A stretch of 64,000 bases of DNA, from assembly GCF_019693215.1 (NCBI RefSeq), contig NZ_CP081183.1, forward strand, positions 1,057,226 to 1,121,225. Direction: 5' to 3'. Under the pieces are notes generated by a model. It saw nothing but the letters and a program-made list of their open reading frames with translations, had not been told where the DNA came from and searched no databases. This document shows positions 5,688 to 62,199 of the stretch, one piece after another (within the stretch, counting starts at the first letter, position 1; each line of letters opens with the position of its first letter). This DNA is from Salinarchaeum sp. IM2453 (GTDB lineage: Archaea; Halobacteriota; Halobacteria; Halobacteriales; Salinarchaeaceae). Made by a program: the position numbers and the translations under genes.

Positions 5688-6332
5688 CTATAAGCAAGCA
5701 CTGGGAGTACGCAGTTGATCGTCTGTCTTTTCTGTCGTGTATAATTGTTCTCGCCATCGGATATTGTTCTCTTCAAAAATCTGGTCAAGAAGGCCATCAT
5801 CTCGCTTGGCTACATATGGAGTTCCTTCAATGTGCTTCTCGGTCACAGTCACAATGTATTTTTCATAAACTTCCAGATCAAGTGTATCAGACTCAGCACT
5901 CCATCCTTGTCGGGGGACTTTGCCTTGAAAAACTAAATGAAACCCAGTTTCAGAAGGGGAAAGCTCTGCGTACGTGTTGGCCTGTTCGAGATACTTACGA
6001 GCTGGCTCATCAATTCGCTTTGTATCTGGATCAATGCAGTCGTCAAAATCAACGATTACAAACGGATCTTTGGCGTCGTTTATCACCACTTGCTTGCCTT
6101 CAATTTGGTCGTATGTCGTGACCAGTTTCTTTGCTTCTTGATACGTATACCAGTGACCAGGCTCTTTGTAAGTAACTCTGTATACGCTTTCGCTATTGGG
6201 ATTAACATCAACTGGAACTTTTTTTATCCGATCTCCATCTCTCTCCTTACGCCAACAAAGCCACCGGTCCATGCGTTTCAGTCGCGGAAGTAGATTATGT
6301 GATTTATTATTCGAAGGGTACACCCGCCGCAT
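5688..6332 (-). CDS. PrimPol-type primase/polymerase N-terminal domain protein
   Basis: The 214-aa product shows hallmarks of the archaeo-eukaryotic primase (PrimPol) domain seen in plasmid and phage primases. These are an acidic motif (FVIVDFDDCID, about residue 92), the SPSETGFHLVF motif (S-x-x-G-x-H, about residue 130) and a following LEVYEKYIVTVTEKHIEGTP segment typical of NrS-1-like proteins. The N-terminal DRWLCWRKERDGDRIKKVPVDV also fits. Full-length relatives carry a helicase or PriCT domain downstream; here the protein stops after the catalytic domain, so it may be a truncated replication gene or a stand-alone primase. It lies 35 bp upstream of the minus-strand end of the McrC gene. 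A mobile-element origin is likely but inferred. Confidence 0.65.
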   Translation of the reverse strand: MRRVYPSNNKSHNLLPRLKRMDRWLCWRKERDGDRIKKVPVDVNPNSESVYRVTYKEPGHWYTYQEAKKLVTTYDQIEGKQVVINDAKDPFVIVDFDDCIDPDTKRIDEPARKYLEQANTYAELSPSETGFHLVFQGKVPRQGWSAESDTLDLEVYEKYIVTVTEKHIEGTPYVAKRDDGLLDQIFEENNIRWREQLYTTEKTDDQLRTPSACL

Positions 6333-6366: not shown

Positions 6367-7776
6367 TTACGGAGATGACTCACTTAGCCTATGCTCCACA
6401 ACCGATTCAGGCAGACTCCGCGAAAGTTGTTCTTTAATCACTGATATTTGCTCTTCATGTTCTTTCGGGCGAAGTGGCGTTTGTTCAATCGTGTAGCCTG
6501 AACTCGAAGCAGTTGTTGGTGTTGTTCTCTCGCCTACGTACAGGATCGTTGCGGTGGCCTTACCGTGCGCTGGCATTAAATCGACAGTATAGCTCAAGAG
6601 TCGCTGGTAATCTTCTAATCCGATGTTGTCTGCTAAACTGTATTTTGCATCACCGATCCAAACAATATCATTTCCAACGCTGATCGCGTAATCGGGGCGT
6701 CCGGGGTTAGAATTAAATCTTGGCGAAAGGATTCGACTGTACTCTTCAAGCGAACGATTGTAGTGCAGTGTTATTTTCGGTGTAAACTCAAACGTTCGTA
6801 GCTCATCACCGGGACGGGTTGGTTCGAGCCCAGTCAAGTCTTTGAGACAGTCTAAGATAATCGTAAGCCCCCACAATTCGTATAGTTTTTCTACTGGTTT
6901 GATCCCAATAGTTAGTTGTTGCTCAATACTCACGCCGAGCGCTTGTTCAGCCTGATATGCCTCCCAGAGATCAATTATTTCCGCAAGTTGCGTCGGGGAC
7001 TCACGCTGTGCTTGCGCTATCAACGATGGATCTGAGAAATCGAGTTGCAGCGCTTTGTCAACAAGTTCCGGGGAGAACCGCGATTCAACAAATTGCTGAT
7101 GATATTCTTTGTTTTTTCGTACTGCTGATTCTGTTAGTACACTATCGTCGATGAGCTGATCCAACTCTTGACTGAGTTCAATATGAAACCGGAGAAGAAG
7201 AAGGTTCAGTGGGTGGTTAAATGAGAACTGGAGGTCATAATAGGCAATCGATCGTGAACCAGTCGCCCGCTCCTGTACCGTTCGATTGATATCAAGCGTT
7301 CCACCGGGATTCGAATCTACACGTCGTTCTCGATTAATCGCAACTGGTGGACGGTTGGCTACAGCTTCTTCAGAAAATTCTATTAATGCATTACTGTAGC
7401 CAAGCAAAATTCGACGGCGTTCAAGCGCTTTGCTTTGAACTAAAGGCAACACGTTCATAGCCGTTGGGAGGTCCCATAATTCTATCCACCCTGCAAGTTC
7501 AGAAAGTAAAAACTCGTACTCATAACGATTAAGCTTGTCAGGGCGTGGGCGCACGGTAATTCCACCAGGGTATCGTCCAGCCCAACCGCCGGGAGAGAAT
7601 CTGGTAACCTTTGATGAATCGTTATCGACAAAATGCGGCGGCGAAGACTCGATCGGCTCATTCTCAGTTTCCTGCTGAATAATCGGTTGGATCTCTTCGA
7701 CAAACTGTCTAAGATCCTTCCACTCATCGACTGTTAGTCCAACCTTTTCCCGTGACAGTGTTTCGTAGGTGATCAT
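6367..7776 (-). CDS. mcrC: McrC-like nuclease subunit of McrBC system 1
   Basis: This 469-aa protein carries a PD-(D/E)XK nuclease core near residues 360-380 (GRPDYAISVGNDIVWIGDAKYS: catalytic Asp in RPDY, then D-x-K in GDAK), followed by a Tyr/Leu-rich helix (EDYQRLLSYTVDL). This matches McrC/DUF2357-type partners, in which the nuclease is activated by an McrB AAA+ ring on modified DNA. The gene follows the McrB-like gene with a one-base stop/start overlap, so the two are translationally coupled. The N-terminal 300 residues are helical and would contact the AAA+ ring. Both genes appear intact. Confidence 0.8.
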   Translation of the reverse strand: MITYETLSREKVGLTVDEWKDLRQFVEEIQPIIQQETENEPIESSPPHFVDNDSSKVTRFSPGGWAGRYPGGITVRPRPDKLNRYEYEFLLSELAGWIELWDLPTAMNVLPLVQSKALERRRILLGYSNALIEFSEEAVANRPPVAINRERRVDSNPGGTLDINRTVQERATGSRSIAYYDLQFSFNHPLNLLLLRFHIELSQELDQLIDDSVLTESAVRKNKEYHQQFVESRFSPELVDKALQLDFSDPSLIAQAQRESPTQLAEIIDLWEAYQAEQALGVSIEQQLTIGIKPVEKLYELWGLTIILDCLKDLTGLEPTRPGDELRTFEFTPKITLHYNRSLEEYSRILSPRFNSNPGRPDYAISVGNDIVWIGDAKYSLADNIGLEDYQRLLSYTVDLMPAHGKATATILYVGERTTPTTASSSGYTIEQTPLRPKEHEEQISVIKEQLSRSLPESVVEHRLSESSP

Positions 7777-10622
7777 CAGCCGATGATCTCGTGTGTATTC
7801 AATGCCTGCTCAAGTTTTTTCTTTGTGTTCACGAACCCGACCTTCTCAGCATATTCAATCACTCGTTTAAATTGGTCCTCCGCTTCTGACTCTGCGGCGA
7901 CAGTTCCGGAACGGCGGAGTTCAGACATATATGGCTCAATCTGCGGGAGAATATATGCAACAACTGCTTGGTCAACTGTGGACCAATCAGCATCGTCAGG
8001 AAACAGCATGTGGTACACTATAATGTATTTATATGCATCAATAACGATTCCTTGGCCGATGGCAGCAACATTTTCTTTATCAAGTTTTTGAACAAACCCG
8101 TGGATGGCTCGGTCAAAGCTGAGGTCACTTCCCACTGGTGAAATATTCTGTCGTGCCTGCTGGAATTCCTTGTCGGTTACTTCGGAAACATTCTTATCAA
8201 CTTCAAATACGTCCTCGAGGTATGGAATTGCGAGTGAGCTATCAGCGTCGAATGGTGAACTGTGATCAAAGTCGTTGATTGCCGCACGTTCTACAATGTA
8301 AGTGGACTTTTCATAGTCTGGATCGAGATTAACATTATCAATATCGGCCTCAGGCTGATTTGATTCCGGGCGTTGGTACACAGGTGGCACTTCTACAAAC
8401 GCAAACCGCCTTCGAAATGCATACCCTAACGCAAACAACTGTGATTGATCCTCGCTATTCATGGTCCCAAGGATCCGAAACGCAAGTGGTACCGCTTGCT
8501 TTTCTCCATCTGCGTACTCTAGTTCTGAATTTTCACGATGAGAGAGGTCAAGCAGGGTAAACACTTCGCCAAAGGCTTCATCAAGATTAGCCCGGTTGAG
8601 TTCGTCAATCAGTAGCCACTGTGGGTGAGGTGGATCAGTGGACGTGAGTGAGTCAACACACGATGCTGCAGCCTTTGTTAGGATCCCAGGCGTTGGTGTA
8701 AATCCGTTGTTTTCTGGACGGTAACCGCCGACAACATCTTGATTTGTCCACTCAGCGTTAGCCGTCTCAACGTGAAGATCAGAACATAACGCCTCGCTCA
8801 GCCGCTCTGCAATCCGAGTTTTACCACTTCCGGGAGGCCCATAGAAGATAACATTCTTTCCAGCAACCAAGTGTACGAGTGCTTTATCATATATTTCTGG
8901 TCGAGGCTCTCCCCCTTTGACTGCTGGTCTTATCATTGCAGCACCCGGGTTGGGATCCTGTCTAATGACTTCCTTGTGTGGAAGCGGATCGGCTATCTCC
9001 CGGAGTTCCACAATATCCCTAATTCCTTCGGGTTCATCCTTTTCATCTGGGGAATTAGGTTCATTCTCGTTGTTGTCTTCTTCGTCACGATCTTCTTCAT
9101 CATCGTCGACTTCCTCAATTGACTCGACATTTCCATTCTGTGTGACCTGAACTTTTGTTCCTCTCTCGGTGAGAGTATCTATCAGGTCTTGAGCGTCTTC
9201 TTCTTCGAGTACGGAGTTCCCCCACGGCCTCACTGGCGCCTCATCTGCAGATAATCGGTAGAGTTGGTCCCAAGACACCTGAACCTGATTAGGGAACTCG
9301 CCATCCCAAGCCTCTGGCACAATCTCTTCCTCAACTTCACTTTCAGCATAAAACGGTCCATATATGAATTTATCATCTGTCCCTGAGATATTCTTGTTAC
9401 CGTAATCGTAGAGAACAAGAATATCTCCCGGTTGTGTATCTCGATCATCCGAATTTTCGGGATAGCCAAACAACTCTCGCGTGAAGCACTCTTGACACGT
9501 GCTTTGATTTTCCCCTTCACCTTGGCCGCAAACGTATATCTCAACCGAATCTATGTCGCTCATGTCATTCGAATTTAGATTTTGTTGCGTACTTTCTTCG
9601 TTTTCTGGATATCGATGCTTCACCGATACTGTTAATTCATTTGTCTGGTCTTCAGGGTCAACATCCGATACGGGATCTCGATCGTCTTTAATCTTATATA
9701 TCTCTGTCTTGGACTCTAACCATTGGTATAATCTTTCTTCAGCAACTGATTCAGAATTATACTCTCCCAAAAGACGGATAAAACGCACCTCGTCGTCTGT
9801 GTTAATCTGTTCTTTAATCTCTCCAAGTGAGACATCAGCAGGACAGTGCATATAATAAATCGCAAACGGATCGCGGTCAATTTCCAGTTCTCTGCGGTCT
9901 GACCCCGATATCAAGCCCACTGTGCAGGGATAATTCAGCTCTTTGCTCTTACGCCACATAGCTTCGGTTGGCCCAGCAACGTACACGTCTGGGCCATTGG
10001 AAGGAGTATACTCCTCGGAAGTCTGTGCAGGTGTGGTATCTAGTAGCAGTGTATCAATTTCTACGTCCGTCGCTTCACGAACCTCGTCTATATTGAAATC
10101 AGGTCTAGTTGTCACTGGTGGCCGTACACTAAATGGACCAGCAACGACTCTGTTATCGGCATCGACATCATTGAGTACTTTTAGATTATCAAAAATTTGT
10201 ATAGAGTCTCCTGGAGGGACTGTCATAATAGCTGTCGAACCAACAATGGCTGGGTTGTTGAGTGGCCGTTTAATAAGACCATCCCGTTCTAACTTATCCG
10301 GAATATCCATATCCATATCCATATCTCGCTCAGATCCAGCGTGAATAAACTGAATCCCTGACTTTTGTAACTCCTCAAGCTTGGATCGCAGTGTCTTGAT
10401 GTCTTCAGAACTTGGACGGCGCGTAGCCCACAACTTACCTGTTTGTACGACAGCGTCAACATTTCTATCGAGAGCCTTATCTATCGCTTTACGAAATGCA
10501 TTGCGAAACTCTGGTCTTCTTTTTGAGGATACGTTTGATGAAGAAAGATAGGTAGGACCGATATGAAGTATTGTTATATCGTGCTCTGTAGTCTCCAGCG
10601 AGGTATCAGCTTGATCTACCAT
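7776..10622 (-). CDS. mcrB: McrB-like AAA+ ATPase with degenerate Mre11-like and DCD/PUA-like N-terminal domains
   Basis: Three parts are visible in 948 aa. Residues about 12-310 follow the Mre11/SbcD phosphoesterase (ILHIGPTYL, NVDAVVQTGKLWATRRP, SGIQFIHAGSERD), but every metal-ligand motif is lost: DxH is PTY, GD is GK and GNH is GSE. Residues about 359-465 (VEIYVCG, CQECFTRELFGYP, PGDILVLYDYGNKN, YGPFYAES, EAWDGEFPNQVQVSW) closely match the layout of DCD domains, which belong to the PUA/EVE-like fold. After an acidic linker, residues about 560-948 are an McrB-type AAA+ domain: Walker A GPPGSGKTR (about 597), Walker B LLIDELNRAN (about 669), GTMNSEDQS and the arginine-rich ALGYAFRRRF. The ring would translocate DNA and activate the downstream McrC nuclease. 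The front domains are probably the target reader. An MDMDMDMDI run near residue 100 comes from a short tandem repeat. Confidence 0.8.
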   Translation of the reverse strand: MVDQADTSLETTEHDITILHIGPTYLSSSNVSSKRRPEFRNAFRKAIDKALDRNVDAVVQTGKLWATRRPSSEDIKTLRSKLEELQKSGIQFIHAGSERDMDMDMDIPDKLERDGLIKRPLNNPAIVGSTAIMTVPPGDSIQIFDNLKVLNDVDADNRVVAGPFSVRPPVTTRPDFNIDEVREATDVEIDTLLLDTTPAQTSEEYTPSNGPDVYVAGPTEAMWRKSKELNYPCTVGLISGSDRRELEIDRDPFAIYYMHCPADVSLGEIKEQINTDDEVRFIRLLGEYNSESVAEERLYQWLESKTEIYKIKDDRDPVSDVDPEDQTNELTVSVKHRYPENEESTQQNLNSNDMSDIDSVEIYVCGQGEGENQSTCQECFTRELFGYPENSDDRDTQPGDILVLYDYGNKNISGTDDKFIYGPFYAESEVEEEIVPEAWDGEFPNQVQVSWDQLYRLSADEAPVRPWGNSVLEEEDAQDLIDTLTERGTKVQVTQNGNVESIEEVDDDEEDRDEEDNNENEPNSPDEKDEPEGIRDIVELREIADPLPHKEVIRQDPNPGAAMIRPAVKGGEPRPEIYDKALVHLVAGKNVIFYGPPGSGKTRIAERLSEALCSDLHVETANAEWTNQDVVGGYRPENNGFTPTPGILTKAAASCVDSLTSTDPPHPQWLLIDELNRANLDEAFGEVFTLLDLSHRENSELEYADGEKQAVPLAFRILGTMNSEDQSQLFALGYAFRRRFAFVEVPPVYQRPESNQPEADIDNVNLDPDYEKSTYIVERAAINDFDHSSPFDADSSLAIPYLEDVFEVDKNVSEVTDKEFQQARQNISPVGSDLSFDRAIHGFVQKLDKENVAAIGQGIVIDAYKYIIVYHMLFPDDADWSTVDQAVVAYILPQIEPYMSELRRSGTVAAESEAEDQFKRVIEYAEKVGFVNTKKKLEQALNTHEIIG

Positions 10623-14665: not shown

Positions 14666-15184
14666 ATGGCAGGCATCTCAGAAGAACATCTCGAAAAAAT
14701 TGTGGAGGAACGTGCCTCTGATCTGCGTTGGACGAAGACCGGTTATTTTAAAATGGAAGAATATATGAAACGTATCTCTTCATTGATAAGTCTTATTACG
14801 ATCGCGACGGCAGGAGGATTGGGTGTTTCTATAGCACAAGGGTTGTTTGAAGGTGTAGGCCAGATCATCATTGCTACTATCGCTGCAAGCACCGGACTGG
14901 TTAATCTCGCTTTTAATCCAGGACTCAAATCATATAAATACTACAGCAGCGGAGAGAAGTATAATTCGCTGCTAAAAGAGTATGAAGAGTATTATTATCA
15001 GACTCTATTGGACGATTCACAACCCTTCGAAAAAAGACAGGAAAAGTTAAAACAACTAAACGAACGAAAACGCGACATAGACAAGATGACTCCGCCTATA
15101 CCCGATTTTGTAATGAACCGCATAGGTGAAGACGATCTTGGAGGAACAATGGATTTTACCAAAATTAGAAGTAAGTCAGAATGA
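14666..15184 (+). CDS. SLATT-type two-TM membrane effector protein
   Basis: This 172-aa protein has a soluble N-terminal helix and two TM helices at about residues 36-60 (SSLISLITIATAGGLGVSIA) and 64-84 (GQIIIATIAASTGLVNLAF). A long cytoplasmic helix follows (YYSSGEKYNSLLKEYEEYYYQTLL). This is the layout of SLATT domains, predicted pore-forming effectors of nucleotide-sensing defence systems. No cyclase (SMODS) or SLOG gene is adjacent. The nearest partner candidate is the convergent 2H phosphoesterase 40 bp downstream. The gene sits just downstream of IS copy 1, with an AT-rich promoter-like stretch (ATATTTATATACC, about 14585) ahead of it. The family call rests on pattern and length and is moderately firm. 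Confidence 0.65.
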   Translation: MAGISEEHLEKIVEERASDLRWTKTGYFKMEEYMKRISSLISLITIATAGGLGVSIAQGLFEGVGQIIIATIAASTGLVNLAFNPGLKSYKYYSSGEKYNSLLKEYEEYYYQTLLDDSQPFEKRQEKLKQLNERKRDIDKMTPPIPDFVMNRIGEDDLGGTMDFTKIRSKSE

Positions 15185-16350: not shown

Positions 16351-16497
16351 TAAAAAGATACGTCGGACGATGCTGTTCATCGGATTCCACCAGACTGCTG
16401 AACTTGCCACAACTCCCGCGACAGGTCAGAAACTACACCGTGAAGCACCGGTCTGGTGAACACCACGATTTTTGTGGTCGGTCAACTACACACTCGT

Positions 16498-17487
16498 ATG
16501 CCATTCACGACGACATGGCACAACCTCCTTGACAATATCGACGAACTTCCCCCTGACGCCACACTGGTTACGCCACTCTCGAACAAGGCGTTTCAGATCA
16601 CCGACAACCAGGAACATCGCGTCCTGATACAATACCGCGACGACGATGAAACGATCCCACTCCAGAAAGACCAGTTTGAGACACTGTACCAGCGGATTCA
16701 AGATACCCACGGCGAGTTCGAGCTTGATCGGCTCCCGCGGGGTGCAGAACCATATGCGACAGTTCTCTCCCTGCATCCTCGCTTCGAGATCGACGACCGC
16801 GAAGCCACGATTACCGAGAGCGAGCAGTCCACAGGCTCGCCACTGGTCAAAGCCCAAGAGACAACCGACGACGCCGACCAGGAACGCGAAGAACCCGACG
16901 TGGACGTGTACACTGACGCACTCCTGCTCATCGACGCCCTCGAACGACACGATCTCGCTGCCCTCGAAGACACCGAAACACCCGCACTCGTTAATCTCTA
17001 CACGCTGCTGTCGGACGTGCAGCGCAATGCCAACGAACTACGCAAAGAGATTCGGAGCCTCCTGCTCGACCGTCTCCATCACGATCAGCCCGTCAGCGGG
17101 CAGTTCGGCTCCGTCCAGCGCACCACCCGCCGCAATCGCTCGCTCAAAGACGATGAGCTGGTGCTGGATGCTTTCGAGTCGGCTGGCATCGAGCGCGAAC
17201 GCCTCACCACCGTCGATGCCGACAAAGTTGATGACGCCCTCGACGTGACCCAACTCTCCGAAACCGACGTGTACGAAATCGACGAACGTGAGTACGTTCG
17301 CAAAGCCGACGTTAACGAAGACGAGAAAGAAACCCGCCTCCAGGGACTCAAAGACCAACTCGCCGCCACAGAGGGCGAGGAAGCCGACCAACTCCGCGAC
17401 GAAATCGACGAACTCGAAGACCAGATCGCAGAACTCACAGAATTCCGTTCCGGGCGCTCATTCCGCGATTCAGAAGCCAGTGGATGA
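16498..17487 (+). CDS. Haloarchaeal protein of unknown function, transposon cargo
   Basis: The product is 329 aa from the ATG at 16498, preferred because the conserved-looking sequence starts TWHNLLDNIDELPPDATLVT; a GTG at 16456 would add 14 residues. The N-terminal 100 residues look like a small alpha/beta domain. A low-complexity acidic linker, a helical middle (LVNLYTLLSDVQRNANELRK) and a C-terminal coiled coil (TRLQGLKDQLAATEGEEADQLRDEIDE) follow. The gene is visibly more GC-rich in third positions than its neighbours, consistent with arrival from a typical high-GC haloarchaeon inside the composite transposon. No enzymatic motif is seen, and I do not recognise a named family. Confidence 0.65.
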   Translation: MPFTTTWHNLLDNIDELPPDATLVTPLSNKAFQITDNQEHRVLIQYRDDDETIPLQKDQFETLYQRIQDTHGEFELDRLPRGAEPYATVLSLHPRFEIDDREATITESEQSTGSPLVKAQETTDDADQEREEPDVDVYTDALLLIDALERHDLAALEDTETPALVNLYTLLSDVQRNANELRKEIRSLLLDRLHHDQPVSGQFGSVQRTTRRNRSLKDDELVLDAFESAGIERERLTTVDADKVDDALDVTQLSETDVYEIDEREYVRKADVNEDEKETRLQGLKDQLAATEGEEADQLRDEIDELEDQIAELTEFRSGRSFRDSEASG

Positions 17488-20838: not shown

Positions 20839-22152
20839 TCATACTTCTGCCAAAAGGTCATCAACGATCTCTTCTGCACTCGATTTGATAGATCCCACAT
20901 AATCATCGTACCGCTCTGAAATACTATCTGTCTCTTGCACATCTAATGACCTGACGAGTAACGGTCCACGTCGGGCAGCACTTTCTGTATAATCGTATGC
21001 TCGTGTCTCTGTCTCAGTCCCATCAGGATAAACAAAAACACCAGGCGTCTCCTCCTGTGCTTGATATACAGCAAGCTGATAGAAGTCGCCCCGGGAAGGA
21101 CTATCATCTGTCTTCCACTTTGCATCACCAACGGCGACAACGCAATCGTCTGTCGTCCGATCACGGAGCACCAAGTCGGGTTCAAGTGAGCGAGTTTCAT
21201 CCCCTGATCGTGATTCCGCTAAATCCCCGAGGTCATTTTCAGTAATACGGTATGTCTCTTGATCGATGGTAGACCGAATCGCTCTGACAGTAATCGACTC
21301 AAACACATTTGGCATGTTAAATACTAAGGAAGGGAGAGGCTGATCCGGTCGATCAAGGCCTCCAATTAGTTGCTCTTTAAGAATAAGCTCGGCCAGAGCA
21401 ACGATTCGTCGATAGTGTCGGTCAAGGCGTGTAAGTGTGAGGTCATCAAGAACAGATTCTGAAATTGGTTGCTCAGATACCTGTCGTCGAAGTCGTCCTC
21501 GGTGCTGAAGAAGCTTGGATCGAAGATTTGATGGCTGTAACCATGAGCACAAGCAGGATGTCGCCGCCAGAATAACCCGATTAAGTGGTGTATCATGAGT
21601 AAGCTCAGCGTATCTACACTCAAATGCAGTTGGCGCTACTCCCTGTCGTTCAAGTTGCTGCTGGATGCGTAACTGTCCACGTAACTGCTTTTCAGTGCGC
21701 TCGTGCTGTTGATATTCCTGCTGGAGCCCTCGTTGAAGCACGCGCTCAAGCTCAGTCAAAAACAGTTGAGCCAGAATCTGCTCAAGATCGTCGCCTGGTT
21801 CGAACCCTGCATCCTCAGCGTCATAGACAAGATCTTCATCAATGTGGCCAGAATACGCCAACAGATATAATAAATTACAGTCTATTTTCGGCTTGATTGA
21901 GAGCGAGTCACCGCTCGGAAGCCCGATAATTCCAACGTAATTTTTGACTTTTACGCGCGCCGTCTGTCCATCGTTGGATATATCGACTTCATCCCACTCC
22001 GATCGCAAATACTCGATATCCTCTCGTTCAAGAGAACACGTTGTGGTTTCCGACTCTCGAACATGATGCGTTTCTCCTGGAGTGATGTCCCTACTACTGT
22101 CGACCGCAGTAGCTGCTTCTGGTTGCTCGGGGGGATTAGCATGTTGACTCAT
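20839..22152 (-). CDS. mcrC: McrC-like nuclease subunit of McrBC system 2
   Basis: The 437-aa product has the McrC family layout. An N-terminal beta domain (KVKNYVGIIGLPSGDSLSIK) precedes the helical LLAYSGHIDEDL and LAQLFLTELERVLQRGLQQEY regions, RGQLRI, and a PD-(D/E)XK nuclease near residues 320-345 (SLEPDLVLRD, then VVAVGDAKWK). It overlaps the 3' end of the McrB gene by 4 bp (ATGA), so the pair is co-translated. McrC supplies cleavage once the McrB ring binds modified DNA. The gene looks intact. Confidence 0.88.
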   Translation of the reverse strand: MSQHANPPEQPEAATAVDSSRDITPGETHHVRESETTTCSLEREDIEYLRSEWDEVDISNDGQTARVKVKNYVGIIGLPSGDSLSIKPKIDCNLLYLLAYSGHIDEDLVYDAEDAGFEPGDDLEQILAQLFLTELERVLQRGLQQEYQQHERTEKQLRGQLRIQQQLERQGVAPTAFECRYAELTHDTPLNRVILAATSCLCSWLQPSNLRSKLLQHRGRLRRQVSEQPISESVLDDLTLTRLDRHYRRIVALAELILKEQLIGGLDRPDQPLPSLVFNMPNVFESITVRAIRSTIDQETYRITENDLGDLAESRSGDETRSLEPDLVLRDRTTDDCVVAVGDAKWKTDDSPSRGDFYQLAVYQAQEETPGVFVYPDGTETETRAYDYTESAARRGPLLVRSLDVQETDSISERYDDYVGSIKSSAEEIVDDLLAEV

Positions 22153-25100
22153 GAGAACTCGTGATTATCGACAAACGTTGAAAGAGCCTGTTCAAGATCA
22201 TCTGCATCGACTCGTGCAATCTCATGATTATCCTGATCGAACAGCCGAGAATCAACTTCTGTCTCAGCAGTCATGTCAACTTCAAACACTTCTTTCCGAA
22301 GGCGATTGAAGTCACCAAAGTAATACTCCTCAAGCAGTGGAAGGATATCGTGTTGCCAAGCAGCCACCAGTTCCTTCTCAGACTCGATTCCGAGCAGGTA
22401 TGAATGACCAATCCGCTTGCCCTTGGTTAAGTCACTCTTATCAATGATGTTTTCATTAATTGCCCGCAGTGCTCGAATTGAAAGTGCCAGTAATGGGTAG
22501 TAACTCGGTTTATTCGGAGGTACAGCTTGTTCTCGGTCACCGGAAATAACATCTTCAGCGAGATCTTCAATCTCTTGTGCTGAATCGAAGTCATATACCC
22601 GAGGGAATACACCGTAGTCGGGAGGAAATGAGAGGAAGCCAAAGCGACGACGTAGAGCTGCATCAATAAGAGCAATCGACCGATCAGCAGTGTTCATGGT
22701 GCCAATAATGTAAAGATTCGGTGGGAGAGCTATCGAATCGCCAGAGTGTGCCCACTGCACCGTCACAGCATCATCTTGTCCAAGCCGTTTGTCCATCTCA
22801 AGTTGAGTAATCGCTTCGCCAAATATCTGGGAGAGATTCCCCCGATTAATTTCGTCGATGAGAAGAACATATCGTGGCACATCGTCAGGATTGTTCGCCT
22901 TCAGATAAGCCGATCGCGCTTCTTGAACAATCTCCTTGAACGTCCCGTCCTTGTAGTTGTACTCAACCTGTCCTTCATCTGTAGCCTCTGCAGTAAGTCC
23001 TTCCATGAAATCTTCATACGAAAATGAAGGGTGGAAAGTGACTGTCCGGAATCGAGTTGTCTTTGGTCGATCGGTCTGTTCATGGATCCACCAGTGTGCA
23101 AATCGAGTAGCGGTGAACGTTTTTCCGGTCCCCGGTGGTCCAAACAAAACAACCTGACCTGTACGTTCGAGTTCAGTCTCAAGTTCGCGACGGTCCTCGC
23201 TTGGAAGTGATTTCGGGGCAGGCAACATAGCGGGCAAATCGTCTGTCCGTGTCACTTCCTGTAGGTTCGGAACCAACTCTTGGAACAAGGGTTGCATAAG
23301 ATTAGACACATCATGCTGGCTATCAGTCAAACTGGTGTAATCATCAGCGCCTGGTGAAAGCGTAGTGTTGAGTTGGATCTGTTCGACTCCAGGAACGTTC
23401 GACCATGAAATACTGTTCTGCATTAGTGCATCGATCTCGTCAACAAGATCGCTGTGTTCCATTGCAAAGAGTGGTTCTTCAAAGTTAATCTGGCTAAGAT
23501 CACCAGTGGCATGCAATTCATCAAGGGTAATCAAATATGGATACCGAAGCGCCTCGTGCTCGTCATACCACCACCGATCTGACTTCTGATCGTGATCCTT
23601 CACAACCGCAACTCCAACAATGCCGCCATTCGAATCAATATCAATTGACTCAAAATTTCGTTCTTCGGAGTCAGCCTGTAAGATGACGACGTCTCCTTGC
23701 TTGGTATTGATCCACTCGTCCCGTTGATCAGTTGTCCCATCGGTTCCATCTGGAAGAGGAAGACTACCGCGCCGAAGCACTGTAAGCAGCGTGCTTGGGC
23801 TCGCTGTGAACTGCCAAACAGCACAATCTTCCTGCTCTCTGTACTGGTTAATCACTGGGTTGTCTAGTGGCTCTTTTACACCCCCTTCTTCAAGCAGATA
23901 CTCTCCTGCATCCTCAGAGAGATTGAAAAGATATCCCTGGTTAATACCAGCTTCATTGACCGGATAGTAATGCTCCAAAGCCACATCAGATCGTGCCAGC
24001 CGCCTGAATACATCAGCAAACGCAATTGGAGGATTAAATTTTGTCAGTGAAACCTCAACTCGACATGCAGGCCCATCACCAGTAGCAGTAAGCGTCGCAG
24101 ATTCGGTTACTTCCGAATAGCCAATGATTTCCCCTCCCGCAAAATGGAATACAGTATCGCCTTCCTCAAGTCGGCTGAGATCATGCCCTGGAGCATTGTC
24201 TGGCGTTGCCTCAAGATACCCCTGTTCTATCTCGTCAGGGCTGTTTGTCTGATTTACCCAGTAGTATGGTGCAGATGGAACCTCATTGGAACAGGCGTCT
24301 GAAGGAGGGAGCTCGAACTGGTGGTCTCCGAAATGCTTTGCAAAGAGATAGTCGGCAGTATCAAACTTGGTCGCCCAGTCTGGAATCGGCTTATCAGAGA
24401 CTTCTGCAGCTAGTTCAGGCAAGTCGAATAACTCAATTGCCTCCTGAACATACTCAACAAACTCTTGATACGATTCATCTGATTCCGTCTCCGAAACCGG
24501 GTAGCCCAGAGCCTTCATTCCAACTTTGGAGCGTTCTGTGAACATGGCGTGTGTGTCTGGCTGATACAGACGGAGTAGTTCGCTCGCCTTCGTCACCCCG
24601 ACTCCATGTATCTGATCAAGAGTTTCTGGGGACTGATTCTCTGCTGCCGTCTGGATGGCTTCAGCGATCTCCTCAGGGCTGTGACGCTGGAGCATGCCCG
24701 CAATAGTTTGCTTAACATTGAGTGGAAGTTGTGTGGACAAGAGCTCATTATCAATAAGGCTCCTGAGCGTCTCCTCACTGGGATTCTGAACAAAATCAGC
24801 CATCCTCTCACGCCCGAGCTTCAAGTTGTCCCAATAGTCGGAGGTTGCTGGAGTATCGTCGGAACCTTCAGACTTTTCTGCGGTTTGAACATCAAGAGAG
24901 CTCCGAATGATCGCATAATCATCAGCTTCGATCGATGTGATAGGATCCTGAGCTGGACGGATTATGCCAGAACCATCAGCGGCACTCATGAAGCTGATAT
25001 CCAGTTCTGATCCAACATGGTCTATTTGACCCGTTGCTTCGTGCCAATCGATGATGTTAGCTAGCTTGTAGTTGCCGTCATCTCGCCGCTCACCCTCAAA

Positions 25101-26939
25101 ATTACCGAGCCGACCATACCCGAGAATAGTCCCGTTTTCGTGGATAACTACGTTCCCATCGTTCTCAGCGTCTTCTACCTGTTGCCAGTTGTCTACCTCG
25201 GTCTGTTTCATCACAAAGAACTGGTCATCTGTAAACTCAGTTCCCTCATCGCCAGCATTGAGAAGAAAATGATTCTCCGTGTTCGGTTCGCGGAGTTGGC
25301 CGTCAAATTCGTTGATAAGCCGTTTTAGGAAGGACTTCTGACCGCCCAGTTCCATCAACACATCGTCGTCAATACGGGTAAAATTCTTTCCCTGACTCGG
25401 AAACCAGTCTTCAATTTCGAATCCCTCAATTGCTTCACTAACAATCTCCTCAAACTCTTCTTGTGGGCAATGCAAATCGGCTATCTTACTTTCTGAAAAC
25501 CAGATATACTCATAATCAGAACTGGTCCAAATCCGATCAGACAGCTCTTTTCGCAAATCAAGAGGCACCTCTTCACCGAGAAGTAAGTCTACTTCCTGAA
25601 TGTAACGGACCTCACTCGGTTGCCCAGTCCGCATTATGAACCGATCGCCGACCTTCATCTGTTCGAAGAGTTCCACATCCTCTGTTTTGTCTTTCGTTCC
25701 CCACGCTGTCACCGTATCTGAATCGAGAAGCTCAAAAATCTCATCCGTATCAAATGAGAGTTCCTGCTGTTCTTGATACTGATCAATCATCTGCTTGAGC
25801 TCAGAGCGTTTTGATTCAGAGAAGTAATTTGCTAAACTGCGGGCTACGTGCCGATGGAATGGGTCGTCTTTGTAGCCCCGGGCCATGAACACGGAGGGTG
25901 ACTGATTAGTGGAGTCATCACTTCTGCTGGATTCTGATGGATCCAGCCGTTTAAAATCGCCACCGTCCGGAATCATAATATCCCCAACAGGGGCGAGTGA
26001 GAAACGAATTGCGTCTCGTTCATCACCGTGTGTATCTGGAAGTCGTACCCACTCATGAGAGACATACTCAAATTGGCCCAAATACCTGACCATTCCTTCT
26101 CCTTCCTGCCAGAAGAGGTGAAGTTCATCGTCATTGGCCTGGTGATTACGAATCGCTCGATTTCCTCGAATAAACTCCATATCACCTTCCTGTCCTTCAC
26201 CGGTGTATTTGAACGTCCCATCAGAAAGAAACTCGTCTTCGTATCCGTGATACTCCCCGCTTGAGCCTGCAAAAAGGAAGATCACCGGATAATCGGCAAC
26301 TGGAGCAATACCGGATTGTCGATTACCGCCGTACTCGTCATGCAGGTCACTCCGAGCATATTGCTTATTCAGCTCAAACGAAACCTTTGCGTCTTCGCTA
26401 CCCTGTTCTGACGATTTAGTTTCTTGATAGATATCTTCACCCTGTTCGGTGAGCGTGTATTCATTCCCTTCATTAGACTCCTCAATGATACCAAGCATCT
26501 GTAACCACTCACGATGCTGAACAGCGACACCAACATTTTCGTCAAAATCACTATTTTCGGCCAAGATTTCATGACACCGTTCATTCGTAAGTGGCCCTCT
26601 AGTTGCTGCCTTGATAAGGTTGTCAAATCCAGTAATATTGATCCGGAGTCTCTCAAAGATAATAGTAGAATCACCAGTTTCCAGAAATTCTTGACTGTGT
26701 TCTGTTAGTCGGTAGCTGCTGTCAGACTGTTCCAGCAGTTGTATCGATTTGAGAAATCGAAGCCGTCTGTTCACTGCATCCTCAGTTTGTGCATTTGTTG
26801 TTTCCAACACCCACTCGACAAGTGACTCCTCAGTTGGGTTGTTCGCGTCGACATGTTCAAATGTTCTCCGCAAGTGATCAAGTCGATCGTCAATTTTTCC
26901 AAACCATCGGTCAGCCGTGAGACGTTTGTCATTTTGCAT
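22149..26939 (-). CDS. mcrB: Giant McrB-like AAA+ ATPase with several modified-base reader domains
   Basis: The 1596-aa product is far longer than classical McrB. In order: a helical winged-helix region (1-165); an SRA/ScoMcrA-like reader (about 200-320: YGGNRQSGIAPV, KYTGEGQEGDMEFIRGNRAI); further beta-rich PUA-like segments (about 560-700); a helix-hairpin-helix-like stretch (IHGVGVTKASELLRLYQPDT, about 780); EVE-like domains near 890 (APYYWVNQTNSPDEIEQGYL) and 1040 (CAVWQFTASPSTLLTVLRRG); then the McrB AAA+ core. That core has Walker A GPPGTGKTFTA (about 1268), Walker B LLIDEINRGNLSQ (about 1360), GTMNTADRS (about 1413) and ALRRRFGF. The stacked readers suggest recognition of several base modifications or of hypermodified viral DNA. 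The partner nuclease is encoded immediately downstream. Confidence 0.85.
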   Translation of the reverse strand: MQNDKRLTADRWFGKIDDRLDHLRRTFEHVDANNPTEESLVEWVLETTNAQTEDAVNRRLRFLKSIQLLEQSDSSYRLTEHSQEFLETGDSTIIFERLRINITGFDNLIKAATRGPLTNERCHEILAENSDFDENVGVAVQHREWLQMLGIIEESNEGNEYTLTEQGEDIYQETKSSEQGSEDAKVSFELNKQYARSDLHDEYGGNRQSGIAPVADYPVIFLFAGSSGEYHGYEDEFLSDGTFKYTGEGQEGDMEFIRGNRAIRNHQANDDELHLFWQEGEGMVRYLGQFEYVSHEWVRLPDTHGDERDAIRFSLAPVGDIMIPDGGDFKRLDPSESSRSDDSTNQSPSVFMARGYKDDPFHRHVARSLANYFSESKRSELKQMIDQYQEQQELSFDTDEIFELLDSDTVTAWGTKDKTEDVELFEQMKVGDRFIMRTGQPSEVRYIQEVDLLLGEEVPLDLRKELSDRIWTSSDYEYIWFSESKIADLHCPQEEFEEIVSEAIEGFEIEDWFPSQGKNFTRIDDDVLMELGGQKSFLKRLINEFDGQLREPNTENHFLLNAGDEGTEFTDDQFFVMKQTEVDNWQQVEDAENDGNVVIHENGTILGYGRLGNFEGERRDDGNYKLANIIDWHEATGQIDHVGSELDISFMSAADGSGIIRPAQDPITSIEADDYAIIRSSLDVQTAEKSEGSDDTPATSDYWDNLKLGRERMADFVQNPSEETLRSLIDNELLSTQLPLNVKQTIAGMLQRHSPEEIAEAIQTAAENQSPETLDQIHGVGVTKASELLRLYQPDTHAMFTERSKVGMKALGYPVSETESDESYQEFVEYVQEAIELFDLPELAAEVSDKPIPDWATKFDTADYLFAKHFGDHQFELPPSDACSNEVPSAPYYWVNQTNSPDEIEQGYLEATPDNAPGHDLSRLEEGDTVFHFAGGEIIGYSEVTESATLTATGDGPACRVEVSLTKFNPPIAFADVFRRLARSDVALEHYYPVNEAGINQGYLFNLSEDAGEYLLEEGGVKEPLDNPVINQYREQEDCAVWQFTASPSTLLTVLRRGSLPLPDGTDGTTDQRDEWINTKQGDVVILQADSEERNFESIDIDSNGGIVGVAVVKDHDQKSDRWWYDEHEALRYPYLITLDELHATGDLSQINFEEPLFAMEHSDLVDEIDALMQNSISWSNVPGVEQIQLNTTLSPGADDYTSLTDSQHDVSNLMQPLFQELVPNLQEVTRTDDLPAMLPAPKSLPSEDRRELETELERTGQVVLFGPPGTGKTFTATRFAHWWIHEQTDRPKTTRFRTVTFHPSFSYEDFMEGLTAEATDEGQVEYNYKDGTFKEIVQEARSAYLKANNPDDVPRYVLLIDEINRGNLSQIFGEAITQLEMDKRLGQDDAVTVQWAHSGDSIALPPNLYIIGTMNTADRSIALIDAALRRRFGFLSFPPDYGVFPRVYDFDSAQEIEDLAEDVISGDREQAVPPNKPSYYPLLALSIRALRAINENIIDKSDLTKGKRIGHSYLLGIESEKELVAAWQHDILPLLEEYYFGDFNRLRKEVFEVDMTAETEVDSRLFDQDNHEIARVDADDLEQALSTFVDNHEFS

Positions 26940-57627: not shown

Positions 57628-60600
57628 TTAGCGGTATTTGGTAATCAGATTGCGTATGTCGTCTGAGTCGACATAGAATCCTTGGAGTCGCACTGTTTCT
57701 TTTGAGTTTTTAAACAGCATGTCGCCGTTTCCGCCAAGTTCTTCTGCTCCCCCTTCGTCAATGAGAATTCGTGAGTCAGCTTGCTTCGGCAACCGGAAGG
57801 CTACTCTGGTATTGAGGTTGGCACGGAGATCCGTGTCAATCGCTTCGTGGGAGGGCCGCTGAGTTGAGATGACGAGGTGAATCCCTTGTGCTCTAGCAAT
57901 CTGCGCGATTCGCCGGACATTATTTTCTGTTTCTCCGGCATCAGCGCCCAGTTGCTGCAAGAAATCGCTGTACTCGTCAATAACAATAACTATTGGACTC
58001 ATCTGGTCGTTCGGGTTCTGTTCGTTATACTCACCTATGTCTCTGCAGACGTTTTTCCTCAACAACTCTTTCCGTCGTGGTATTTCCTCGTCAACTAGCC
58101 ACTCGAACAGGTCCGCTGCATCATTAGGATCGGTTATTACATCATCAGTCACGAGATTTGGCAACGCGTCGAAGAAAATGAAATCTGTCTCTTTGGGATC
58201 TATCAGGGCAAATTCAATATTTTTCTCTCCCTTCTGCTCAATGAAGTTCATAATCAGTGAGTACAGGAACACTGTTTTACCACTACCAGTGGCTCCACCA
58301 ACCAGCATATGTGGAGCTTTGGAAAGATCAGAATGGTGTATCTCACCGTCAGGAGTAACTCCCGCCAAGAAAGGTAACGATTCCGTGCTAATTTCATCAG
58401 CCGTTCTATAATGTGTTTTATACTCTCGGAGGGGAACCACAACGCTGTCTTCTCGAGGAACATCAAGGGCAACGTACTCCGTACCGCGAAGACGTTGGAC
58501 CATTGGCTCCTTATCGAATGCCATCTCCCGGGCGATATCTTCAGTTCGATTTTCTAGTGAATTTTGTTTTTCTCCAGGAGCGAGTCGGATTTTAAACCGT
58601 ACTACATTTGGCCCTACTTCGACATTATCCGGATCGATCTCTCGGATGTCGATTCTGAAGTCATTAAGAACTCGTTTCAATGTTTCTACCGTATCGGCGT
58701 GCAGTTGTGGATCCCCAAAGTCGTTGGAAGTGAAGCTAGAACCACCAGTCTCCTCGCTTGTCTCTTCAGCCACATTCCGTTCGTTTTCCGCACTCTCATC
58801 CGTTGTCTCTTTCTCTGGTGTCAATTGTTTCTTTTCGTCCTGACCTTTTCGATCTTCAATACCACTGATAATTAGCCGCTTTATTGACTCTCTGGGGAGT
58901 TTATCGACACGGACTGATTGTGCGTTTGGAGTTACCCCGTCGATTCGCTCATCAGACGTGGCTTCGCTTGTGACTTCAACCGATATGATTCTTGGGTTGA
59001 TTTTGATCTGGGCTTCACCACTAAATACCTCATTAATTCGAACCGCCCATTCCTGCATATCACCTATTTCTTCTGCTGAGATCAGTTTGTAGTACAATTG
59101 CTCTCGAAGCGCTTCTTTCCTAGGAGACGTCGTGAGATTACTCTCACCACTGAATAACCCTCGGATTGTCTCTGCTGTTTTGAACACTTGATCAACAGCA
59201 CTACCTTCGATGATTTTGGCACCATTGTCGTCTGTAATCGTGTAAGCATTACTGGCCTCTTCAACCGTTTTGATTTCAATGATATCCAGAATGAGCCCAT
59301 CATCATCATCGAACTGAACTGTGAGAATGTCAGCTCGGCTTTGACTGTCCCCAAGGTTCAGCCATTCCCTGGTCCGAGGATTGTCGATTGAGAAAATAAG
59401 TTTTGGATCAGCGAGAGTCTGTTGGAGCCACTGTACTGCGATAATCGATCCTAATAATCCTTTGTTGTTCTTCGATTTTCCACCTCCAAGTGTCTCTTTA
59501 GTAACTAAGCGCAGGAGACCTGACTGTTGTATGTCTGCTATCCTTTCTGCAATCTCTTCAAGATCGGTGTCATCTGGAGCCAAACGGTAGTCATTAATGA
59601 TCCGACGAAGAACTCGTCTGAAATAACCGATATCTGCAGAGTATGTGGCAAAGTCACGGTCTCCGCGTCGTTCTCGGGAAATCAGATTATCCCTCCAGAA
59701 CGGATCCCTATTCATTGGAGGCGATGAAATAGATACCCAGAGAGAAGACTGGAGAAACCTTTCTACAGTCTCTTTCTCAATGTTTAGATCATTGACTTCG
59801 GCGTTGTGGATTGATTGACGTTGGTTGTAAAGCTGATTGGTTAGATCTTGGTATTCGGAGAATAGCATACCTTCCTTTGACGGAGATATGTTTATCTTAT
59901 CTTCTAGAAGATCGTATTCGAATTCTTTGGGAACATACAGCGGATGGATTGCAGTGTCAGTGTCTCGCTCGAACGTCTGTATATTGAAATCACTCTGATC
60001 GTTGAGTAAGACAAAATGCTTTGGATTTTCGTCTAGATTATCAGCGTAACTGCTGTAACTGGGATATTCTCTGGTTAGTATCTCAAAGTTACCAGAATCA
60101 TTGTCTGGTCCAAACAGATTGATTATGTCCTCAGATACGTTACCTGAGTTCGAGTTGCTGAAAATCGACGTCTCCTCGTTTTTAATGAATGCGAACTCTA
60201 CAGTGGCTCCCTGAATTTGGTCTTCCTCGGCAAGGTCTGTAATGTCGGAAAGTAGGTTTTCTGGCTCAAGAGGATCAATTACGCTAATTTTAATATGACG
60301 TTGAGATGGTGGGTATGCCGAGACAAACTTGTTAATAATATAGTCGTAGAATTGAGAGTTCGTTCCTTCTGAAGCATTCTCAATCTGTGTGTAAACCGGA
60401 AGGCGATCAATTTCTGTTGACTGAACGAGATATGTTTTTTCCGATAGACGGTAATTCCCGCCGACATGGATGCTCCGAAGAACATGAGGCTGTTCATCAA
60501 CACTATCAATGAGGAAACGCTGTTCTTCTTGTGACAGAGATTCCTTTTCCTCTTTCATATTCCGTGCCAACTCGGTATATTTCCAGAGATGAAGAGGATG

Positions 60601-62199
60601 GAGCGGAGATAACATGAGTTCCCTTTCATCTTCGTACTCGAAGATGATCGTATCAAACAAAAGGAAATCAGATAGAAGTTTTGACGCCCCTTCTGAGCTC
60701 ACTTTCTGTATTTCTCGGTATTTCTTGTCTAATCTATTCTGGACCTCTCGATATGCCTCAATATAGTTTTCTGACTCACTAAGTAACTCCTCATCACCCA
60801 GCAACCGGATAAGAGGTGCTGAAAGCAATCCCGGTAAGGCGTCGACGAGTTTTTTTCGAGTTGTGACATAACGGTCAATCGCTTCAACCAAGTCCTCAAA
60901 CTTACCGGTACTCTCGGCTGCTCGACGTAGCTTCTTGAAGCTACTATCTCCGCCATATGGCTGGAATTTCACCGTTTGAAGGGCTTGGAAATTCTTAATG
61001 GCGTTTGATTGATCCTCCGGACTGTGAATTATCCCACCAAATGACTCCTCCGTAACAAAATGACTGACAAAATAATGGAGATCGTCATTTACGTTGAATG
61101 CTAATTGTTCATCGTGGGTGAAGTCTATCTCAACGCTGTTCTCTTCTTTATTAATAGCTTCTCGATACTCGTCATCGAATTCCTCCGAAATACGTTTCAA
61201 CTCATCCGTCTCGTCATCGAAGACAGCCTCAACACCTACTGATTCAACATCCCGACGGGTGGTAGTGGTGTTTGTGGACCGCCTTCGAGAAGGTTGTGTT
61301 GACGTTGAGAAAATATCGTCTACTTCTTTGTATGTCAATTCTCCCAGAATTTTCGCATCACCAGTCCGCTCGAACCGACGAAGCTTAGCAACGGCTTGTT
61401 CTCGTTCTTCGCGCTCTCCGTCATCAACCTTATTAATACTATTGGTGAGGCGGCGGCGATCTCGTCTGGACATGTGAGAAACTCGAAGCACGAGATCTAG
61501 ATTATCTGCCAACCGGTTTGGAATTTCATCCGGGTCATTAAGTCCAGGATCAGCGAATAGGCGAAGCCTATACAGTTGGGTTCCCAAAGCGTCGAGTGAA
61601 CCTTGCTTACTATCCCGGAGGGTAGCCGTAGCGTAATCGGCCACCGCAGAAATTTCAAACCGGTCGTAGAGATTTGACCCTATTGTTTCCCAGACCGCCT
61701 CGGCTGGAGGACTACCCGCGAACGGATCCTGGTGTTTCATTTGATTAGTTATCTCTCTCGTAACTTCTGCCAGCGGAAGGTCAATCATCCCCTCAAAATC
61801 TTTCATCGAGTTCAGGCGAGCATGATCTCCTCGAACTAGGATTACTAGCTTTTCGGGTTCTATACGGCCATCCCACTTGAACTCTGTTTCAGTTCCGTTC
61901 CTCCAATTAACAGCTACGCTCACTCTGTCGGTAATCTGGACAGACGAGTCCCTAGCCTGCGCCTGAAGGGTATTTATATCAGCTTCACTGATGCTAACCA
62001 TCGCTAACCCAACATCATACTCTGTACTACTGCACAGTGTATCGACAAAGGCCTCTGCGTCAAACCGCGGCGGTGATTCGATGATAACACCAATATTTTC
62101 TTCAGTTAACCGGTCAACAGTCTGTTGTCCGATTGCTCTTCCGATTAACTCTTTACTGTTCTTGAAAGAGTCGCGTTGTATTTTATTAGTCTTACTCAT
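57628..62199 (-). CDS. Giant nuclease-FtsK/HerA-type DNA translocase
   Basis: In this 1523-aa protein the C-terminal 250 residues are an FtsK/HerA ATPase: HMLVGGATGSGKTVFLYSL (Walker A, about 1305), ALIDPKETDFIFFDALPNL, IVIVIDEYSDFLQQL (Walker B, about 1406) and LVISTQRPSHEAI. Around residues 960-985 a PD-(D/E)XK-like motif appears (RADILTVQFDDDDGLILDII, then EIKTVEEA). The N-terminal 900 residues are long, mostly helical and unassigned. The start overlaps the end of the 500-aa gene by 4 bp. The size and pairing recall large ATPases of phosphorothioation-dependent restriction (DptH-like), but that is only a possibility. A translocase that carries its own nuclease suggests DNA restriction or plasmid/virus exclusion. 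Confidence 0.75.
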   Translation of the reverse strand: MSKTNKIQRDSFKNSKELIGRAIGQQTVDRLTEENIGVIIESPPRFDAEAFVDTLCSSTEYDVGLAMVSISEADINTLQAQARDSSVQITDRVSVAVNWRNGTETEFKWDGRIEPEKLVILVRGDHARLNSMKDFEGMIDLPLAEVTREITNQMKHQDPFAGSPPAEAVWETIGSNLYDRFEISAVADYATATLRDSKQGSLDALGTQLYRLRLFADPGLNDPDEIPNRLADNLDLVLRVSHMSRRDRRRLTNSINKVDDGEREEREQAVAKLRRFERTGDAKILGELTYKEVDDIFSTSTQPSRRRSTNTTTTRRDVESVGVEAVFDDETDELKRISEEFDDEYREAINKEENSVEIDFTHDEQLAFNVNDDLHYFVSHFVTEESFGGIIHSPEDQSNAIKNFQALQTVKFQPYGGDSSFKKLRRAAESTGKFEDLVEAIDRYVTTRKKLVDALPGLLSAPLIRLLGDEELLSESENYIEAYREVQNRLDKKYREIQKVSSEGASKLLSDFLLFDTIIFEYEDERELMLSPLHPLHLWKYTELARNMKEEKESLSQEEQRFLIDSVDEQPHVLRSIHVGGNYRLSEKTYLVQSTEIDRLPVYTQIENASEGTNSQFYDYIINKFVSAYPPSQRHIKISVIDPLEPENLLSDITDLAEEDQIQGATVEFAFIKNEETSIFSNSNSGNVSEDIINLFGPDNDSGNFEILTREYPSYSSYADNLDENPKHFVLLNDQSDFNIQTFERDTDTAIHPLYVPKEFEYDLLEDKINISPSKEGMLFSEYQDLTNQLYNQRQSIHNAEVNDLNIEKETVERFLQSSLWVSISSPPMNRDPFWRDNLISRERRGDRDFATYSADIGYFRRVLRRIINDYRLAPDDTDLEEIAERIADIQQSGLLRLVTKETLGGGKSKNNKGLLGSIIAVQWLQQTLADPKLIFSIDNPRTREWLNLGDSQSRADILTVQFDDDDGLILDIIEIKTVEEASNAYTITDDNGAKIIEGSAVDQVFKTAETIRGLFSGESNLTTSPRKEALREQLYYKLISAEEIGDMQEWAVRINEVFSGEAQIKINPRIISVEVTSEATSDERIDGVTPNAQSVRVDKLPRESIKRLIISGIEDRKGQDEKKQLTPEKETTDESAENERNVAEETSEETGGSSFTSNDFGDPQLHADTVETLKRVLNDFRIDIREIDPDNVEVGPNVVRFKIRLAPGEKQNSLENRTEDIAREMAFDKEPMVQRLRGTEYVALDVPREDSVVVPLREYKTHYRTADEISTESLPFLAGVTPDGEIHHSDLSKAPHMLVGGATGSGKTVFLYSLIMNFIEQKGEKNIEFALIDPKETDFIFFDALPNLVTDDVITDPNDAADLFEWLVDEEIPRRKELLRKNVCRDIGEYNEQNPNDQMSPIVIVIDEYSDFLQQLGADAGETENNVRRIAQIARAQGIHLVISTQRPSHEAIDTDLRANLNTRVAFRLPKQADSRILIDEGGAEELGGNGDMLFKNSKETVRLQGFYVDSDDIRNLITKYR

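Follow-up and report, generated by a model that had tools for sequence, protein, structure and literature searches.

McrBC restriction systems in which McrB carries an N-terminal EVE, DCD or YTH domain as a reader have been described, DCD-McrB fusions among them (Bell et al. 2020, PMC7641849), and DprA-phosphoribosyltransferase (PRTase) pairs are anti-phage systems in E. coli (PMC9122126). The terms "Mre11", "phosphoesterase" and "SbcD" are absent from the main text of the first of these papers and from that of a census of McrBC systems (PMC11090510), and our search of the open-access literature found no paper in which Mre11 is joined to McrB or a pseudo-Mre11 serves in defence. Here we describe an McrBC-like locus of Salinarchaeum sp. 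IM2453 in which a DCD-McrB protein is preceded by a domain that has the characters of an inactivated Mre11. It lies in a stretch of 64,000 nucleotides (the window) of the single 2.66-Mb contig of the host genome, in surroundings where defence genes and insertion elements abound.

The McrB-type protein, P0001, is encoded by one open reading frame of 948 codons (948 aa) on the minus strand, running from window position 10622 to 7776. The opposite strand had been assumed originally, and this reading of 7776-10622 is ruled out by the 32 stops in its translation; a frameshift or pseudogene fusion was also rejected, there being one open frame and no evidence for either. The order of the parts is pseudo-Mre11, DCD and AAA+, with matches to AAA_5 and Dev_Cell_Death in Pfam and to Mre11_Halo and McrB in NCBIfam. 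The stop codon overlaps by one base (TGATG) the start of the gene for a McrC-like nuclease, P0002 (469 aa, 6367-7776, minus strand), and the other neighbour is a histidine kinase. A stand-alone AEP/PrimPol-like protein of 214 aa (5688-6332, minus strand), which starts 34 bp after mcrC, is an uncertain third gene, with a Prim-Pol match below the cut-off (E = 0.034). The homologue closest to it among 394 genomes (45%, L065:6401-7168) is found directly downstream of an EVE-DCD-AAA gene of genome G173, and other homologues, in three genomes (L122, L124 and L125), adjoin SLATT_4 membrane effector genes.

Elsewhere in the window there is a second McrBC pair (20839-26939, minus strand), consisting of an McrB of 1596 aa whose N-terminal regions are large and an McrC matched by PF10117. 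A pair resembling SspH and SspG (57628-63698, minus strand; PADLOC E = 4e-64 and 2e-12) suggests by its sequence matches a phosphorothioation-linked defence system. On the plus strand, a 172-aa protein (14666-15184) has a sub-threshold SLATT_6 match, and the gene at 16456-17487 belongs to the haloviral family phrog_35116 (E = 6e-132), with a region in common with the C-termini of the proteins L074 and L112 discussed below.

The motor and nuclease parts of the locus conform to an McrBC system. The McrB-type AAA+ core (residues 590-740, window 8403-8855, minus strand) was recognised by PF07728 (E = 5.8e-23) and by motif alignment with six McrBC relatives, with a Walker A (GPPGSGKT) at residue 595, a Walker B (LLIDELNRA) at 670 and an intact RRRF finger region (AFRRRF) at 735. 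The McrB GTPase signature MNTADRS reads MNSEDQS, and it varies among relatives of the same clade as well; PADLOC made no McrBC-specific call for P0001, which is also matched by the NCBIfam McrB model. Homologues of P0002 adjoin six related McrBs (E from 2e-46 to 2e-67). PF10117 (McrBC) is above its cut-off only in the homologue L063, P0002 itself having a sub-threshold PDDEXK_7 match, and the PD-(D/E)XK motif, which P0002 keeps as PD...DAK (P361 D362 ... D376 A377 K378; 6643-6696, minus strand), is invariant in all seven homologues. The McrB ring that the original prediction had proposed is thus supported by intact motor motifs and a coupled gene with an intact nuclease motif.

The closest motors (L063, L064 and L066-L069; 39-44% identity) have the same McrC partner and none of them, including the short 404-aa protein L064, has an Mre11 match; therefore, the N-terminal reader appears to have been exchanged on a common McrBC chassis. 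Altogether, P0001 and P0002 are likely to form an McrBC-like restriction system with exchangeable readers.

As for the DCD, PF10539 matches residues 372-452 (9267-9509, minus strand; E = 1.5e-8, 34.9 bits against a curated cut-off of 27.8), so that the DCD-like domain suspected by the earlier reader is supported, and this PUA/EVE-like core is homologous to the DCDs of the haloarchaeal proteins L065 and L013, both also above the cut-off. A structure model of the domain, made with three sequences only, is too poor to be used (pLDDT 56, pTM 0.55). An acidic linker seen in the sequence (about residues 505-540; 9003-9110, minus strand) joins the DCD to the AAA+ core. Haloarchaeal DCD-McrBs that have no Mre11 include L013/L128 and L065, of which L065 also has an EVE domain. 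The AAA+ of this EVE-DCD-AAA gene (L065:7056-9197, minus strand) is a dead McrB-type motor, broken at its Walker A (GPTGTKKN), at its Walker B and in its RRRF region; a transposase-like ORF lies nearby and no McrC directly follows.

Several lines of evidence relate the N-terminal domain of P0001 to Mre11. The NCBIfam model Mre11_Halo (NF041030) matches residues 18-287 (E = 2e-17), and a BLAST search of the host genome with P0001 returned the protein itself, the second McrB and the host mre11, whose product (L003, a 409-aa frame with intact motifs and rad50 directly downstream) aligns with residues 17-142 at 33% identity (E = 5.3e-11). An archaeal Mre11 also ranks first in a sequence search of the PDB (E = 0.004). 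An AlphaFold2 model of the domain reached a pLDDT of 82.3 and a pTM of 0.82, and the top 50 PDB structures returned for it by Foldseek were without exception Mre11/SbcD (best 3av0, E = 2.9e-11, TM 0.66). As the input alignment of 31 sequences contained real Mre11s, the model alone is weaker evidence; the profile and BLAST matches are independent of it. The domain covers positions 1-312 of the 312 of the A1 profile, to which P0001 itself belongs, and the Pfam Metallophos model does not recognise it, as expected because its motifs are gone. Independent evidence from profile, BLAST and fold rules out a chance resemblance. By sequence and by predicted structure, residues 13-320 (9663-10586, minus strand) are a true Mre11 module, nuclease plus capping domain. 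The proposal of an Mre11/SbcD-like N-terminus of some 300 residues is upheld accordingly, and the suggested structural comparison with archaeal Mre11 gave this fold and not a different one. The Mre11_Halo match stops at profile position 272 of 361, so the Rad50-binding C-terminal segment is absent, and there is no rad50 beside P0001, its neighbours being the genes for McrC and the histidine kinase.

The catalytic site of this module has been replaced throughout. When P0001 is compared with 42 haloarchaeal Mre11-like proteins with intact sites (numbering of P0001), the ligands D, H and D are changed to P23, Y25 and K63, N to E98, the catalytic H to R99, the H of motif IV to P163, and in the last GDxH, D and H give way to T196 and P198. 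All five Mre11 motifs are replaced and every ligand or catalytic position checked is changed, and the domain is, judged by these positions, catalytically inactivated. The original prediction had seen the replacement of the metal-ligand motifs correctly, but it listed three of the five and was one residue out of register in reading GNH as GSE, because the ungapped alignment pairs GNHE with SERD. At the catalytic position His is present in all 42 intact sequences, while the nine inactive sequences compared (P0001 and eight relatives described below) have Arg (six) or Lys (three), and therefore a basic residue stands at the former catalytic His. In one member of the intact set (L071penta) the N of GNH is replaced by S, the other ligands being kept. 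The net charge of the P0001 domain is -19, versus about -35 for intact haloarchaeal Mre11s.

P0001 is not the only protein of this kind. Nine further inactivated Mre11-like domains were found in eight other haloarchaeal genomes: L071, L072 and L111 (both from one genome), L073, L074, L112, L113 (cut short near a contig end), L114, and L119 of Halosimplex pelagicum. A profile built from five inactive sequences, and not from the others, gives at least 217 bits to the inactive domains and at most 193 to real Mre11s. In a tree of 51 sequences (the 42 intact ones, the first eight relatives and P0001, with L119 outside), one branch separates the nine inactive from the 42 intact sequences with a support of 98/96, and the degree of motif loss differs among the members of the dead clade. 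The branch of the P0001 domain is very long (3.5-3.8) and draws a warning of long-branch joining from the program, so that its place in this clade may be due to long-branch attraction. The possibility that close homologues would have an intact site, which had been offered as a sign of simple decay, was not realised, since the closest relatives in the tree are themselves inactivated, which makes a recent decay of one gene unlikely. In two pairs of relatives, P0001 not among them, the dead domain is under purifying selection (dN/dS 0.29 and 0.37), and this together with the change of His to Arg or Lys argues for a function retained without catalysis. In all likelihood, then, the pseudo-Mre11 is functional.

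With regard to its origin, grouping of P0001 with an accessory family of haloarchaeal Mre11s is not rejected (p-AU 0.129), whereas grouping with canonical Mre11 is (p-AU 0.012), and the module probably derives from this accessory Mre11-Rad50 family. Members of the family (L076, L077, L079 and L080) also occur on plasmids and in operons with a Rad50-like ATPase and, as read by eye from the sequences, apparently NurA- and HerA-like genes. Most genome searches were done on samples of about 394 genomes; in the 394 sampled from the phylum the dead clade was not detected above threshold outside the haloarchaea. Pattern scans of genome and viral contigs gave no close homologue of the whole P0001 fusion, and plasmids yielded AAA+ matches and three accessory-type Mre11-like matches and no second fusion, so P0001 is the only direct fusion of a dead Mre11 to McrB found.

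The company of the dead domain in the relatives, whose gene functions are profile matches except where read by eye, is of two types. In four of them (L072, L073, L111 and L114) the dead Mre11 is followed by a helix-hairpin-helix (HhH) and a C-terminal ShosT/PsyrT-like PRTase, with pentapeptide repeats in two; L073 is a near copy of L111, and PADLOC matches ShosT/PsyrT in L072 and L111. The dprA gene adjoining L111 matches ShosA (3e-56) and the neighbour of L114 is a DNA_processg_A protein. Downstream of the latter pair, and set off from it by a gene on the opposite strand, are genes for a TerY-like vWA protein, a PP2C phosphatase and a large ORF (L114:15019-19003, plus strand). In the second type (L071, L074, L112 and L119) the dead Mre11 is placed between an extra N-terminal region and a variable C-terminus, which in L074 and L112 has a region in common with phrog_35116; no defence genes are evident beside L074, L112 and L119. 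The L071 gene, from Haloprofundus marisrubri, has the same orientation as an unrelated McrB and McrC pair that follows 279 bp downstream of it (McrC PF10117 E = 1.6e-51), with a ShosT-ShosA pair further on; neighbours in an island may have come together by accident. Beside this dead Mre11 (L071 11367-17052) there are also an intact phosphoesterase, an Mre11-like protein that combines near-intact motifs with pentapeptide repeats in one fusion, and a Bles03-like protein of 503 aa that at its start looks, by eye, like a degenerate phosphoesterase. The fusion of a dead Mre11 to McrB is real, as first noticed, but the domain is not peculiar to McrBC, being also fused to PRTases and placed beside an independent McrBC pair; as its relatives are joined to an unrelated class of defence proteins, it may be a sensing component that defence systems can reuse.

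Our preferred reading, to which we give an even chance as a whole, is that of a type IV restriction system in which a pseudo-nuclease helps to select the target DNA by its ends or branches. The two genes would encode an McrBC-like machine made of an AAA+ ring (McrB) and a PD-(D/E)XK nuclease (McrC), with the choice of target split between two N-terminal readers. The DCD/PUA-like domain would probably read a modified base. The Mre11 module stems from a family whose members act on DNA ends together with Rad50. It would have lost metal and catalysis while its fold and capping domain persisted, and would now serve as a clamp that holds DNA ends or branched, replicating DNA without cutting and so delivers McrB to viral DNA on entry or during replication. 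Binding of such DNA by the pseudo-Mre11 is itself about equally balanced in our estimate, and we infer the preference for ends or structure, the antiviral role and the division of labour with the DCD. This reading is favoured by the intact McrB and McrC motifs, the coupled genes and the kept Mre11 fold and capping domain, by the dead domain turning up with both McrBC and PRTase effectors, and by the supported branch of the dead clade, the purifying selection on two pairs of relatives, the basic residue at the catalytic His and the less acidic domain. The candidate donor family in Rad50-like/NurA-like/HerA-like operons, with the difference in p-AU, points in the same direction. It is weakened by the very long branch of P0001, the missing Rad50-binding part, the lack of a close homologue of the whole fusion in the contig and plasmid scans, and L074, L112 and L119, which have no evident defence neighbours.

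The recurrence of the same kind of inactive domain on two unrelated effectors could also mean that the dead Mre11 is a decoy of the host protein, so that viral inhibitors of Mre11-Rad50 would be caught by it and thereby set off the effector to which it is fused (McrBC or PRTase). Phage proteins that block Mre11-Rad50 exist (TelN, PMC12624138), guarding of host nucleases is known from a retron that senses RecBCD inhibition (PMC9122126), and a decoy requires exactly a lost catalysis and a kept fold. However, we identified no haloarchaeal viral inhibitor of Mre11, McrBC does not normally depend on a protein trigger and can already read DNA through its DCD, and the Arg or Lys at the catalytic His suits a nucleic acid at least as well, so we consider the decoy unlikely. 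Mre11 homodimerises via N-terminal helices, and these are modelled with high confidence in P0001 (H33-53 and H72-87), so only the dimer interface might have been kept to pair McrB subunits or hexamers, with targeting left to the DCD alone, as the DCD-McrBs without Mre11 could do. This would leave unexplained both the fusions to PRTases and HhH-containing proteins and the basic residue fixed at the catalytic His, and is slightly less probable still. Finally, a chance fusion of mre11 to the McrB gene, followed by decay without function, as the loss of every ligand, the very long branch and the finding of only one such fusion might indicate, is very improbable given an ORF that is open and in frame with the DCD and AAA+, a fold predicted with a pLDDT of 82, purifying selection in other clade members (dN/dS 0.29 and 0.37) and a His-to-Arg/Lys change common to all clade sequences compared.

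Going beyond this locus, we propose tentatively, and at rather less than even probability, that haloarchaeal pseudo-Mre11s are a family of exchangeable sensors or decoys in McrBC systems and ShosT/PsyrT-type PRTases, which would report viral DNA ends or attack on the host Mre11-Rad50. If so, a repair nuclease stripped of catalysis and reused as a defence front end would add a new type of input domain to prokaryotic immunity, and would tie the end-processing machinery to restriction and DprA-PRTase systems. It also raises the testable question of whether the pseudo-enzyme reads DNA ends or serves as bait for viral inhibitors of Mre11-Rad50.

In comparison with known systems, the locus shares with the McrBCs that have EVE, DCD or YTH readers the DCD-McrB fusion, the PD-(D/E)XK McrC and the coupled genes, and differs from them by the inactivated Mre11 module in front. 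The combination had been taken to be new as a whole; DCD-McrB is already published (PMC7641849) and present in the haloarchaeal L013 and L065, but the dead Mre11 in front of it is a new part. The pseudo-Mre11 is all that the P0001 system has in common with ShosTA/PsyrTA, whose PRTase is fused to a dead Mre11 of this kind in other haloarchaea. The P0001 system has no PRTase or DprA itself, and seven proteins of the region, with P0001 and P0002 among them, gave no match to a PRTase toxin or DprA antitoxin. With Mre11/SbcD it shares the phosphoesterase fold and the capping domain, without the metal ligands, the catalytic His, the Rad50-binding part or an adjoining rad50 gene. The B-subunits of the eukaryotic DNA polymerases alpha, delta and epsilon are likewise calcineurin-like phosphoesterases that have lost their ligands and act as non-catalytic scaffold parts, although they are related to the small subunit of PolD and not to Mre11, and work in replication and not in restriction.
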